This document shows positions 19,624 to 60,219 of a DNA stretch of 64,000 bases, piece by piece. This DNA is from Pseudomonadota bacterium (GTDB lineage: Bacteria; Pseudomonadota; Gammaproteobacteria; Burkholderiales; Ferrovaceae). The notes under the pieces are model-generated. The model saw nothing but the letters and a program-made list of their open reading frames with translations, searched no databases and had not been told where the DNA came from. Position 1 is the first letter of the stretch. Each line of letters opens with the position of its first letter. Both the position numbers and the translations under genes were made by a program. The stretch lies in assembly GCA_021805445.1 (NCBI GenBank), contig JAJZFH010000045.1:1-64000 (forward strand), given 5' to 3'.

Positions 19624-19842
19624 ATCTCTCTCTTTAATAGGTAATGATAGGAGTAGGAAAAATTCCGGGAAAACTCGTAAAATATAATAAAAAACATAAG
19701 AGTAAAGTGTTTCAAAGGATGTTGATAAGCCATTTTTTTACAGAATTGCTTTGTGGATAACCAAGAAAATAAAAAAAAATTCTTTGTTATCCACAAAGCA
19801 TCCACAGGTTTTTCCTGGGTTATACCGTACTTATTTTTTGGG
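19624..19842. other. Probable replication origin (oriC), dnaA-dnaN intergenic region
   Basis: A 219-bp, strongly AT-rich gap. Two perfect DnaA boxes face each other: TGTGGATAA at 19752-19760 (minus) and TTATCCACA at 19787-19795 (plus). Weaker sites are CATCCACA at 19799-19806 and TGTTGATAA at 19720-19728. AT-rich tracts (about 19680-19740 and 19765-19785) could be the unwinding element. Bacterial origins often lie beside dnaA, so this is the best oriC candidate; the dnaA-rpmH gap also has box-like sites and may contribute. The dnaN promoter must also lie here. Confidence 0.7.
19749..19798. repeat. Inverted repeat carrying two facing DnaA boxes
   Basis: CTTTGTGGATAAC (19749-19761) and GTTATCCACAAAG (19786-19798) are a perfect 13-bp inverted repeat. 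It continues inward for six more bases with one mismatch, and the centre is an A/T-only tract. Each arm contains a consensus DnaA box. The symmetry could place two DnaA filaments around a melting core. Confidence 0.85.
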
Positions 19843-21195
19843 TTATCCATTGAGAATACTGTTCAAGGCTTCGAAATCTCGTTGGGTTGTTTGATCGCTG
19901 CCACAGAGTTCCTGTATTTTTCTACAGGCATGTAGCACTGTCGTGTGGTCTCGTCCCCCGAAGGATTCTCCGATGTCAGGCAGACTGAGACTGGTAATTT
20001 CCTTGGCCAGGGCCATCGCCATTTGTCGAGGTCGGGCAAGATTACGGGTGCGTTTTTTGGAAAACATGTCACTGACTTTTATTTTGTAGTAGTCCGCAAC
20101 CGTTTTCTGAATGTTTTCAATGGATATTTGCCGATGTTGCAATGCTAGAACATCTTTTAAGGCTTCCCGTGCGGAAATGACGCTGATGGATTCATTACGA
20201 AAACGCGCATAAGCGACCACCCTTTTTAACGCGCCTTCCAATTCGCGTACATTGGAGCGAATGTGTTTGGCGATGAAGAAAGCGACGGATTCTTCAAGAA
20301 TGATCGATTCCTTTTGCGCTTTACTGATCAAGATGGCCACCCTCATCTCAAGTTCAGGAGGTTCTATGGCAACGGTCAATCCCCAGCCAAAACGTGAGAT
20401 GAGTCGAGGCTCCATGCCCGATATTTCTTTGGGGAAACTGTCGCACGTGATGATTATTTGTCGGTGTGATTCAACCAATGCATTGAATGCGAAGAAAAAC
20501 TCTTCTTGAGTTCGAGTTTTATTACCAAAGAACTGGATATCGTCGATCATCAACAGATCCAAGGTGTGGTAATACTGTTTGAAACTGTCGAAGGATTTGT
20601 GTTGATAGGCGCGGACGACGTCGGATACGTATTTTTCCGCGTGGATATAACGTACTCTGGCTTGAGGATTCCGCTCCAGAATATTATTGCCAATCGCTTG
20701 AATCAAGTGAGTCTTGCCGAGGCCTACTCCCCCATAAACGAAGAGAGGGTTGTAGGCTTTTCCTGGATTTTCGGCAACCTGAAGGGCAGCCGCGCGCGCC
20801 AGTTGGTTGGCTTTACCGTTGACAAAATTATCAAAGTTGAAGGTTGGATTGAGTTGAGATCGCTCGGCTTGATTGGGTTGGACCACCGTCTTGGTCAACG
20901 TGTCCTGATATGTGTCTGAAGGAGGAGAATTCTCGGGAAGAATCGTGCTATTCTCCTTCTGCTGCAAAATCACGGAATCCAAACCTTGCTCTCGAGCCAG
21001 TTCGTCGATACGTTGGAAGTAACGTTCCTTGACCCACTGCAGGATGAAGCGATTGGGGGCAATCAGGAAAACTTGGTTGTTTTCGATCACCTCTGAGAGA
21101 GGTTTTATCCAGGTATTGAATTGAGATTCTGTGTATTCTGCCTGAAGATTCAGCAGAGTTTGTTGCCATCGTTCTGAAGCGGGAAAAATAGACAC
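19843..21195 (-). CDS. dnaA: Chromosomal replication initiator DnaA
   Basis: A 450-residue AAA+ initiator that binds DnaA boxes and melts oriC. Domain I is at the N-terminus ([21 protein letters not shown]), followed by a short linker. The AAA+ domain has Walker [17 protein letters not shown] (about residue 153) and Walker [11 protein letters not shown]. Domain IV ends with the DnaA signature [14 protein letters not shown] (about 412). The start is GTG 21195. The upstream region contains box-like sites (21273-21306), which fits the usual autoregulation, though this is inferred. It is divergent from rpmH, the classical arrangement. Confidence 0.97.
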
Positions 21196-56902: not shown

Positions 56903-57970
56903 GTGCTGAAAAATGATACCTTCCTAAAGGCTTTATTGCGTGAACCCGTTCCCTATACCCCGATTTGGATCATGCGACAGGCCGGTCGATATTTGCCTGA
57001 GTACAATGCGACGCGGGCCAGAGCCGGCAGTTTTCTCAATTTGTGCAAATCACCGGACCTGGCCACGGAAGTCACGTTGCAGCCCTTGGCCCGGTATGCT
57101 CTGGATGCCGCCATTCTTTTTTCCGATATTCTGACTGTGCCGGATGCCATGGGTCTGGGGCTGTATTTTGCGGAAGGAGAAGGACCTAAATTTGAACGTC
57201 CCATCCGCGATGAATGGGAAGTTCGCAATCTGAGTGTGCCGGATCCCACCGTGAACCTGCGTTATGTTCTGGATGGGGTGTCTCAGATTCGTAAAGCATT
57301 GGCGGGTTCGGTACCCCTCATCGGTTTTTCGGGCAGTCCGTTTACGCTGGCCTGCTACATGGTGGAAGGTGGTGGGTCGGAAGATTTCCGTCATATCAAG
57401 GGCATGCTCTACCGTCGCCCGGATTTGTTGCATCGTATTCTGGAAGTGACCACCGAAGCGGTCATCCAGTATTTGAATGCCCAGATCGAGGCAGGTGCTC
57501 AGGCAGTCATGGTATTCGATACCTGGGGGGGAACGCTGACTCCGAGGGCCTATCGGGAATTTTCCCTGCATTATCTGGCAGTGATCGCTGCAGGGCTGAC
57601 CAAACAGGCAGAAGGGCGTCGGGTGCCCAGTATCGTCTTTACCAAAGGCGGTGGATTGTGGCTTGAATCCATTGCCGATGCGGGCTACGATGCCGTGGGG
57701 TTGGACTGGACCATGGACATGGGTGAGGCCCGGCACCGAGTCGGCCATAAGGTCGCTTTGCAAGGCAATCTGGACCCGATGACCTTGTTCGGTACGCCCG
57801 AGTGCATTCGCTCAGAGGTGGAAAGGGTACTGACGGAATTTGGTCCGGGATCGGGTCATGTTTTCAATCTTGGCCATGGCATTACGCGCTTTACGGATCC
57901 AGATCAGGTGACGGTGCTGGTGGATGCCGTGCACGAACTGAGCCGCCGACCAAGTATCGCTATTACCTGA
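56903..57970 (+). CDS. hemE: Uroporphyrinogen decarboxylase
   Basis: A 355-residue TIM barrel that converts uroporphyrinogen III to coproporphyrinogen III without a cofactor. Signatures are [15 protein letters not shown] near the N-terminus (with the substrate-binding Arg residues), [14 protein letters not shown] (catalytic Asp), and the FDTWGG block. The start is GTG 56903, preceded by AGAGG. It is 48 bp after gltD and precedes priA, a placement common in betaproteobacteria. Confidence 0.96.
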
Positions 57971-57977
57971 CACATAA

Positions 57978-58008
57978 GGAAAAAGCCAGATTATTCATGG
58001 TTTTTTCC
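57978..58008 (+). terminator. Possible terminator hairpin after hemE
   Basis: A 10-bp stem (57978-57987 with 57999-58008, one G-U pair) and an 11-base loop begin 8 bp after the hemE stop. The stem is mostly A-U and its T run is inside the stem, so it is a weak or unusual terminator at best. Confidence 0.35.
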
Positions 58009-58014
58009 CCAGTG

Positions 58015-58023
58015 TTATGCACA
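58015..58023 (+). promoter_or_regulatory. DnaA box in the hemE-priA gap
   Basis: TTATGCACA fits the DnaA consensus TTATNCACA exactly. It lies 214 bp before priA and is one of two boxes in this gap. Confidence 0.5.
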
Positions 58024-58047
58024 GAACGGGGGCGATGGGCAATAATC

Positions 58048-58066
58048 CTTATGAATCATGGAGGTT
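58048..58066 (+). repeat. Direct repeat copy 1 before priA
   Basis: CTTATGAATCATGGAGGTT matches copy 2 (58107-58125) at 17 of 19 positions. The 59-bp spacing is close to a whole number of helical turns, as for paired operators. Confidence 0.65.
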
Positions 58067-58089
58067 TTTGGTAAACATAAGGTAACACA

Positions 58090-58118
58090 ATGATTTGTAA
58101 GTACAACTTACGAATCAT
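58090..58118. repeat. Near-perfect 29-bp palindrome before priA
   Basis: ATGATT-T-GTAAGT and ACTTAC-G-AATCAT flank a three-base centre (ACA), with one mismatch per arm. The right arm is shared with the direct repeat at 58107. It looks like the binding site of a dimeric regulator, but no known operator was recognised. Confidence 0.65.
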
Positions 58119-58125
58119 CGAGGTT
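58107..58125 (+). repeat. Direct repeat copy 2 before priA
   Basis: CTTACGAATCATCGAGGTT, the partner of 58048-58066, and overlapping the palindrome. Confidence 0.65.
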
Positions 58126-58156
58126 GGGTCAGGCGACTTCAGGCACATTTAATATC

Positions 58157-58186
58157 TTGACAAGTATCAAATTCTCAACTTATAAA
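58157..58186 (+). promoter_or_regulatory. Sigma-70 promoter of priA
   Basis: Perfect TTGACA at 58157-58162, an 18-bp spacer, then TATAAA at 58181-58186. Transcription would start near 58193, within the DnaA box at 58192-58200 and about 35 bp before the priA ATG. Confidence 0.7.
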
Positions 58187-58191
58187 CAAAG

Positions 58192-58200
58192 TTATCCACA
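58192..58200 (+). promoter_or_regulatory. Perfect DnaA box at the priA transcription start
   Basis: TTATCCACA, the strict consensus, lies six bases after the -10 element. DnaA bound here would be expected to block or retune the promoter. Confidence 0.65.
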
Positions 58201-58227
58201 GATGCCCCGCACCTGTTCTGCTGACGC

Positions 58228-60219
58228 ATGGATCTCCAGGACCCCATGATCGTCGAAGTCCTGCTCGATCTGCCTTTACCACGCAGGTTTGATTATCATG
58301 CCAGTCTGGTGACAGAGGAGGATGTGGGGCGACGGGTCAAGGTTCCATGGGGCACTGGGCAAAAAGTCGGAGTGATTCGAGCCCTCAAACACACCTCCAC
58401 TTACCCCTTGGACAAAATCAAGGAGGTCCTGGAGATCTGGCGGGACGTCCCGCCCCTGAATGCCCGTGATTGGCAGTTGCTGGAATTCTGTAGTGCCTAT
58501 TATCACTATCCTTTGGGTCAAACAGTGCTGGCCATGCTGCCGCCTGCTTTGCGTCGGGTCGGGGGCTGGCTGCCGCCGCGCCGAGTACGCCAATCCCGGA
58601 ACGATCCTGCCCAGAGTTCGACGATGCCTCTCAATAAGGACCAGCGGGCGGTGGTGCAGACGATTCTCCGGCAACCGCACTTTGCCGTGCACCTGATCCA
58701 TGGAGTGACCGGGAGCGGCAAGACCGAGGTTTATTTTTCTCTGATCGAAGAGGTATTGAGGCGCGGACGACAGGTTCTCCTGCTGGTTCCGGAAATCAAC
58801 CTGACCCCCCAACTGGAACAACGTCTGGCGCGCCGCTGGCCTACCCTGGACTGGGTCAGTCTGCACAGCGGGGTCAGTGAGAAGGAACGGGCGCGGCGTT
58901 GGCTGGCGGCCCAGGCCGGGACCGCACGTTTGGTATTGGGCACACGCCTGGCAGTTTTTACGCCTCTACCCGAGTTGGGATTGATCGTGGTGGATGAAGA
59001 GCATGAGGCTTCCTTCAAACAGCAGGATGGACTGCGGTATTCCGCCCGGGACATGGCCATTGTCCGTGCGCGTCAGGGGGGGGTTCCGATTGTACTGGGA
59101 TCGGCGACGCCCACATTGGAAAGTTGGCACAATGCCCGTTCCGGACGGTATCAACTGCACCATTTGAGAGAGCGGGCCGTACCCGGCGCCTGTTTGCCTC
59201 AACTGACTCTGGTCCCTACGGCGCAGGAAGGACTCTCTCCCCACTGGGTGACCGCCTTGCATGAAACTTTGGGCCGGGGAGAACAGGTCCTGGTGTTCAT
59301 CAACCGGCGAGGGTATGCCCCGGTTCTGTATTGCCCCAACTGTGGCTGGCAGGCGGCCTGTCCGCGCTGTAGTGTGCGCCTGGTGGTTCACCGGCGTGCA
59401 CGCCAACTGCGTTGTCATCACTGTGGTCTGGAGCAGGTCCTGAACGAGGCTTGTCCGTCCTGCGGGAATGTTCACATGGAAACCCGTGGAGAAGGGACAC
59501 AGCAGGTGGAAGAACGTCTGCGTACCTATTGTCCCTCGGCCAGTCTCTTGCGTCTGGACAGTGACAGTCTGGCCTTGAAGGGAAGTTGGGAAAAGGCGCG
59601 GGAACAAATTTTGGACCATCAGGTGGATATTCTGGTGGGGACCCAGTTATTGGTCAAGGGGCACGACTTTCCTGATTTGTCTCTGGTGGTGGTACTGAAT
59701 GCCGACCAGTCGCTCTTCAGCAGCGATTTTCGTGCTTCAGAACGGCTTTACGCGCAACTTCTTCAGGTGGCAGGTCGTGCCGGACGGGCAGAAAAGGCGG
59801 GACAGGTGTGGATTGAAACGGATTATCCTGGACATCCCGTACTGTTGGCGCTGTTGCAGCACGAAACAGAAAACTTTCTGGACCAGGAATTGGCCCTGCG
59901 GCGTCAGATGGGATGGCCGCCTTTCAATTATCTGGCCATCCTCCGGGTAGAAGCACGGGACGTGGCCAAGGTCGCTGCCTTTCTGGAGGAGGCGCGGCGG
60001 AAAGCCTTGGCGCGAGGAGGAGAAGGGATCAGTATTTTTGATCCGGTTCCATCCTCCTTGGCACGCAAGGCTGGCTTCCACCGCTGGCAATTACTCGTTC
60101 AGGGCGTGCAACGCGCTCACCTGCAAGCGTTTCTGACCGGGTGGGTGGATGAGTTGCGTGCGATGCGCTCGGGGCGAAGCATCCATTGGGTGCTCGAAGT
60201 CGATCCCTGGGACTGTTAG
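58228..60219 (+). CDS. priA: Primosomal replication restart helicase PriA
   Basis: A 663-residue 3'-5' helicase that reloads the replisome at broken forks. The N-terminal 3'-end-binding domain covers about 1-110. Walker [12 protein letters not shown], the DEEH box ([18 protein letters not shown]), and SATPTLESW follow; the zinc-binding strand-exchange domain has eight cysteines in four pairs (CPNC, CPRC, CHHC, CPSC), and helicase motifs [13 protein letters not shown] and [13 protein letters not shown] come next. It is shorter than E. coli PriA (732). ATG 58246 is an alternative start. The end overlaps the convergent uppP by 4 bp. Confidence 0.96.

Follow-up and report, generated by a model that had tools for sequence, protein, structure and literature searches.

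Escherichia coli offers the two closest described kinds of locus: datA, which supports the datA-dependent hydrolysis of DnaA-ATP (DDAH), and the DnaA-reactivating sequences (DARS), at which DnaA is reactivated via ADP release. Both are known in detail from work on E. coli, and the datA literature examined here concerns strains of that species. The datA locus lies between glyY and queG and was originally described as a titration locus (PMC5835720). Its minimal form is 183-187 bp long, and boxes 2, 3 and 7 together with a site for integration host factor (IHF) are essential (PMC5742627; PMC10380432; PMC10950094). The essential boxes all point the same way, and how far they stand from the IHF site is important (PMC5742627; PMC10380432). 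DARS acts via head-to-head dimers of ADP-DnaA at boxes I and II (PMC8682772). A related locus is described here from the gap between hemE and priA in a Pseudomonadota bacterium of the Ferrovaceae (Burkholderiales), at positions 58015-58200 of a 64,000-nucleotide stretch of contig JAJZFH010000045.1 (assembly GCA_021805445.1; the whole stretch is called the window). Judged by its sequence, it is probably a DnaA-IHF regulatory element of the datA/DARS class, standing before priA, all-parallel and hence datA-like in type, with the priA promoter embedded in it.

The element is built from the following sites:

58015 to 58023, plus strand: DnaA box 1, TTATGCACA, a single box of exact consensus, 68 bp before the IHF site
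58083 to 58095, minus strand: predicted IHF site, AATCATTGTGTTA (TAACACAATGATT on the plus strand), one mismatch to WATCAANNNNTTR
58180 to 58188, plus strand: weak DnaA box, TTATAAACA, at +97 from the IHF site and 12 bp before the strong box
58192 to 58200, plus strand: strong DnaA box 2, TTATCCACA, of exact consensus, at +109 from the IHF site

The datA sequence used for comparison was taken from NC_000913. Measured from its minus-strand IHF site, datA carries box 7 at -77, box 2 at -65, box 3 at +97 and a reversed box 4 at +109; the corresponding offsets in the window are -68, +97 and +109. The two downstream offsets are therefore identical, the upstream box lies at -65 in datA and -68 here, and the lengths are 183-187 bp and 186 bp. 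As in datA, a single IHF site of the same orientation stands between boxes of one direction: those at 58015, 58180 and 58192 are all on the plus strand, with strong boxes (58015 and 58192) on either side of the IHF site and a weak box (58180) 12 bp from one of them. The tandem motif TTRTAAACARAGTTATCCACAG is common to the window and to datA boxes 7-2. Like datA, the element has its single IHF site at a fixed spacing and lies close to the replication origin (oriC), about 38 kb from the probable oriC of this genome, which also encodes both IHF alpha and IHF beta (each above its NCBIfam cut-off) as well as HU.

A sequence-only reading of the window had called two consensus DnaA boxes, a palindrome, a 19-bp repeat and a sigma-70-like promoter in this gap, and a check of the sequence confirmed all of them; the weak box at 58180 and the IHF-type site at 58083-58095 had been missed. 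Its proposal of a site for DnaA titration or of datA type finds strong support in the sequence as regards datA, since the kinds of site, their orientation and their spacing all agree with E. coli datA once the ends are exchanged, but titration alone does not account for a fixed IHF site and a quantised spacing. A passive site near oriC that held DnaA on a few strong boxes without catalysis would suit the consensus boxes near oriC and the first description of datA (PMC5835720). We regard it as very unlikely, because the strong boxes number only two and the fixed IHF site, the orientation and the helical-turn spacing would be left unexplained.

The comparison of the hemE-priA gap covered eight genus members, 15 additional genomes from the family and some from elsewhere in the order. 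All eight genus members have TTATGCACA and TTATCCACAG, box 1 is kept as TTATNCACA throughout the family, and strong box 2 is kept in all family elements examined. The promoter of the window is the following:

58157 to 58186, plus strand: sigma-70-like promoter read from the sequence, TTGACA (58157), 18 bp, TATAAA (58181)

It is retained in all eight genus members as TTGACA-18-TATAAAC or TATGAAC. Elsewhere in the family the boxes are preserved and TTGACA is missing at the corresponding place, so that by this comparison the boxes are the part held by selection, and the promoter in its present form is a feature of the genus. Two further features of the gap fared differently:

58090 to 58118, no strand: 29-bp palindrome with 13-bp arms, 12/13 paired
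58048 to 58066 and 58107 to 58125, plus strand: copies of the 19-bp repeat, 17/19 identical and 59 bp apart

In the window sequence the palindrome, the repeat and the box pair are each above chance: in dinucleotide shuffles of the gap, the palindrome arose in 0/300, the repeat in 0/100 and two or more DnaA boxes in 1/5000. Palindrome and repeat had been attributed to an additional dimeric regulator. None of the seven other genus members has either of them, not even those whose PriA is 95-96% identical, and the left arm of the palindrome overlaps the IHF site; a regulator site is therefore not supported, and the two features are judged to lie outside the conserved device. The check that had been proposed, conservation of the gap elements in relatives, thus came out in favour of the boxes and, within the genus, the promoter, and against the palindrome and the repeat.

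On a wider scale, genomes were searched with the pattern TTATNCACA N157-185 TTATCCACA, which does not include the IHF site, and with the reversed pattern as control. The pattern was found in 248/399 genomes of the order (114/159 genera), compared with two genomes for the control, and in 211 of the 369 class-sample genomes, nearly all from other orders, compared with one. It also occurs in 57/299 phylum-sample genomes, where the few matches outside the class are mostly TTATCCACA clusters. All these counts are lower bounds, as genome G026, which has no exact match, has an element that differs by a single base in box 2. The same box pair is present in named Burkholderia and Trinickia genomes. A chance or lineage-specific cluster of sites would fit the palindrome and the repeat, both of them lineage-specific, but it is set against 248 genomes of the order versus two with the control; for the boxes and the IHF site it is already refuted, and its probability for the locus is negligible.

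The matches are concentrated at one chromosomal neighbourhood. Besides the window, 64 of the 66 loci fetched from the order lie at hemE and/or priA, and 11 of the 17 gammaproteobacterial matches stand directly before priA, with one more about 1.3 kb before it; some of these have no hemE. A survey of 80 assorted priA-upstream loci, gathered by protein search, gave the full signature in two (L001, L003) and the box pair alone in three Burkholderia-like loci (L002, L004, L018), and none was seen there in alphaproteobacteria or other phyla. Upstream of E. coli priA, no consensus DnaA box and no IHF site were found.

The element is single in the genome of the window. Two complete tandem copies occupy the hemE-priA gap at loci L141 and L140 (genomes G031 and G191), and pattern matches indicate extra copies within 1-5 kb in G033, G163 (both copies on L181) and G343. 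Some gammaproteobacteria have further copies of the pattern away from priA (L212, L145, L221-L224), in a mixed gene context with no common theme (rpmE, pyrD, a GATase_5-domain gene, rapA, parB and alpha/beta hydrolases). In families f5, f22 and f28, box 1 is repeatedly followed, some 25-35 bp on, by a CTTGTCAAG/TTGTCAAG motif, and a similar motif stands just before box 1 in the three Burkholderia-like loci named above; the -35 of the window promoter carries CTTGACAAG.

The internal geometry was measured in 113 elements, 95 from betaproteobacteria and 18 from gammaproteobacteria. In 79/95 beta elements (0.67 in shuffles) a minus-strand IHF consensus with at most one mismatch lies 106-112 bp ahead of the strong box, and 14/18 gamma elements (0.18 in shuffles) have it at the same fixed offset. 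The distance from box 1 to the IHF site in the betas is either 65-71 bp (47 elements) or 76-80 bp (32 elements), with none between, and in the gammas it is 68 or 78-81 bp, giving two distance classes one helical turn apart. When 80 non-redundant elements are aligned on the IHF site, they share TAAnnnnTTGATT and after it an A/T tract, a layout known from extended IHF sites, and an invariant ACA in the weak DnaA box 12 bp before the strong one. The strong box itself lies anywhere from 12 to 500 bp from the gene. As the distance to the gene varies and the inner spacing is fixed, the constraint lies on the DnaA-IHF complex. From this arrangement, a functional DnaA-IHF loop of the datA/DARS class can be predicted as very likely.

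The same set of elements bears on whether the locus might instead be a DARS-type site, derived from the same module as DARS2 and reactivating DnaA via ADP release. Seen from the opposite strand, the DARS cores of E. coli have box III and box II 3 bp apart and a reversed box I 5 bp further on, and the tandem boxes III-II of DARS1 and DARS2 with their 3-bp gap are matched by the window boxes at 58180 and 58192. A DARS-type box I (head-to-head, 5-bp gap, at most two mismatches) accompanies 14/18 gamma and 27/95 beta elements and almost never occurs at other gaps, the DARS2 IHF site lies within about one turn of the distance found here, and DARS1 and DARS2 likewise precede repair genes, uvrB and mutH. 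For the window, however, a DARS-type site is improbable: box I has six mismatches there and at least five in all 23 elements of its family, and since box I is required for the head-to-head ADP-DnaA dimers of DARS, its absence sets the window element apart from DARS sites. The same locus appears, from these sequences, in a DARS-like form in some lineages and in a datA-like form in others. The datA boxes 7-2 and the DARS boxes III-II are the same tandem module.

To return to the datA-like reading, we infer binding of DnaA and IHF, looping, ATP hydrolysis and priA repression from what is observed directly, namely the sites, their order, spacing and conservation, and the genes for both IHF subunits. 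IHF would bend the DNA at 58083-58095, and the bend would place the DnaA bound at the single upstream box beside that bound at the weak and strong boxes of the downstream tandem, all boxes having the same direction, as head-to-tail contacts of ATP-DnaA require. By analogy with datA, ATP-DnaA would be retained in this bent complex, which would promote its ATP hydrolysis (DDAH) after the locus has been replicated, and this hydrolysis would damp re-initiation at the nearby oriC. Whether DnaA-ATP hydrolysis is the main output is a tentative matter; the analogy makes it a serious possibility, somewhat short of probable. The same complex would switch off priA transcription at high ATP-DnaA. In the genus of the window this repression is likely, because the priA promoter, which is conserved across the genus, sits within the tandem boxes, with a predicted transcription start at about 58193, within DnaA box 2, and a -10 within the weak box.

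The genes flanking the gap are:

56903 to 57970, plus strand: hemE (uroporphyrinogen decarboxylase), upstream gene, TIGR01464, 423 bits against a cut-off of 303
58228 to 60219, plus strand: priA (replication restart helicase), downstream gene, TIGR00595, 550 bits against a cut-off of 230

The gap runs from the end of hemE at 57970 to the first priA ATG at 58228. The true priA start is probably the second in-frame ATG, at 58246, because PriA of several relatives aligns only from residue 6-8. The GC content of the gap is 0.41 compared with about 0.56 in the surroundings; an Rfam search of it gave only sub-threshold chance matches, and a plasmid similarity search with it gave no match.

The sequence-only reading had also suggested that priA is tied to the level of DnaA. 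This is possible, given that nearly all of the beta genomes examined, and most of the gamma ones, have the element before priA and that the promoter overlaps the boxes in the genus. In its strongest form, the element would be a transcription switch for priA and nothing else: ATP-DnaA and IHF would form a repression loop over the priA promoter, so that helicase supply followed the cell cycle, and the nucleotide state of DnaA would be unaffected. This would suit the 64 of 66 order loci at hemE and/or priA, the 12 of 17 gamma matches at priA or within about 1.3 kb upstream of it, the promoter start within box 2 in all eight genus members, and the way the element stays with hemE-priA when these are far from oriC. 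Nevertheless, other genera keep the boxes without an evident promoter at the same position, the distance to the gene varies over 12-500 bp, second copies lie at unrelated genes in some gamma genomes, E. coli priA lacks such upstream sites, and the datA geometry is hard to explain by a switch of this kind, which we consider rather unlikely.

The position of the element relative to the origin was judged from the following features:

19624 to 19842, no strand: probable oriC, the dnaN-dnaA gap, with a GC skew sign change at about 18-22 kb and an A/T-rich stretch
19752 and 19787: inverted TTATCCACA pair in the dnaN-dnaA gap
19843 to 21195, minus strand: dnaA

The element is near oriC in most, though not all, of the other genomes. 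The alphaproteobacterial oriC adjoins hemE, and a second or ancestral replication origin beside hemE would be in keeping with the DnaA boxes, the IHF site and the AT-rich gap adjoining that gene. Such an origin is extremely improbable here, given that the GC skew changes sign at dnaA-dnaN (about 20 kb) and the element is at 58 kb, and that the link in gammaproteobacteria is to priA, not hemE.

Several observations weigh against a datA-like element. Its ends are exchanged relative to E. coli, the order being single-IHF-tandem in the window and tandem-IHF-single in datA. At least five genomes of the order have no element at priA (G025, G032, G035, G038, G039). In G028, G238, G256 and G267, hemE-priA and the element with it are separated from dnaA by 1.1-1.8 Mb, or 22-44% of the chromosome; this distance from oriC, like the strict link to priA, is easier to reconcile with a role specific to priA. 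The extra head-to-head box in many lineages means that the datA output may not apply everywhere.

In the literature search, whose scope did not include the key 2013 and 2017 datA papers, no report was found of DnaA boxes before priA or of a betaproteobacterial datA-like element. The novelty of the priA-attached element is provisional, because those papers were outside the scope and because a review mentions DARS2-like sequences in E. coli-proximal beta- and gammaproteobacteria (PMC5742627). An element built like datA in 248 of 399 genomes of an order of Burkholderia-like betaproteobacteria, nearly always before priA, would mean that locus-based control of DnaA reaches a further large group, and it would offer a ready mutational target in each species. 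It probably ties the control of replication start to DnaA activity in much of the beta- and gammaproteobacteria, and perhaps priA itself too; if so, the supply of the restart helicase would be joined to initiation control. Opposite outputs, DARS or datA, are predicted according to whether one head-to-head box is there or missing, and this would allow a direct test of the choice between DnaA on and off.

Compared with known systems, the element is nearest to datA, from which it differs further in that the +109 box is reversed in E. coli and not in the window, and in that datA follows a tRNA operon and the window element is at priA. The E. coli order was considered as the common form and was found in only 20/339 class genomes. 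DARS2 (rppH-mutH) shares the tandem III-II, and its IHF site is 99 bp from box II compared with 109 here, about 10 bp closer; it has no single same-direction box 68 or 78 bp before the IHF site, and it has the box I that is missing in the family of the window. DARS1 (bioD-uvrB) has the tandem III-II like the window, yet it is compact, has box I, and no IHF site was found in it. DARS1, DARS2 and the window-type element each precede a gene for DNA repair or restart, namely uvrB, mutH and priA (L160, L200, L201). In the DnaA-regulated promoters of nrdAB (PMC8682772), mioC and dnaA (PMC4585315), boxes overlap or adjoin the promoter, as they do here, but the window element differs from these in its IHF-centred fixed geometry, kept across the class. 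It is conceivable, though doubtful, that the priA-attached element, deeply conserved across beta- and gammaproteobacteria, is the ancestral form of E. coli datA and DARS2, which would inactivate DnaA without box I and reactivate it with box I, coupling the restart helicase to the DnaA cycle in both cases.
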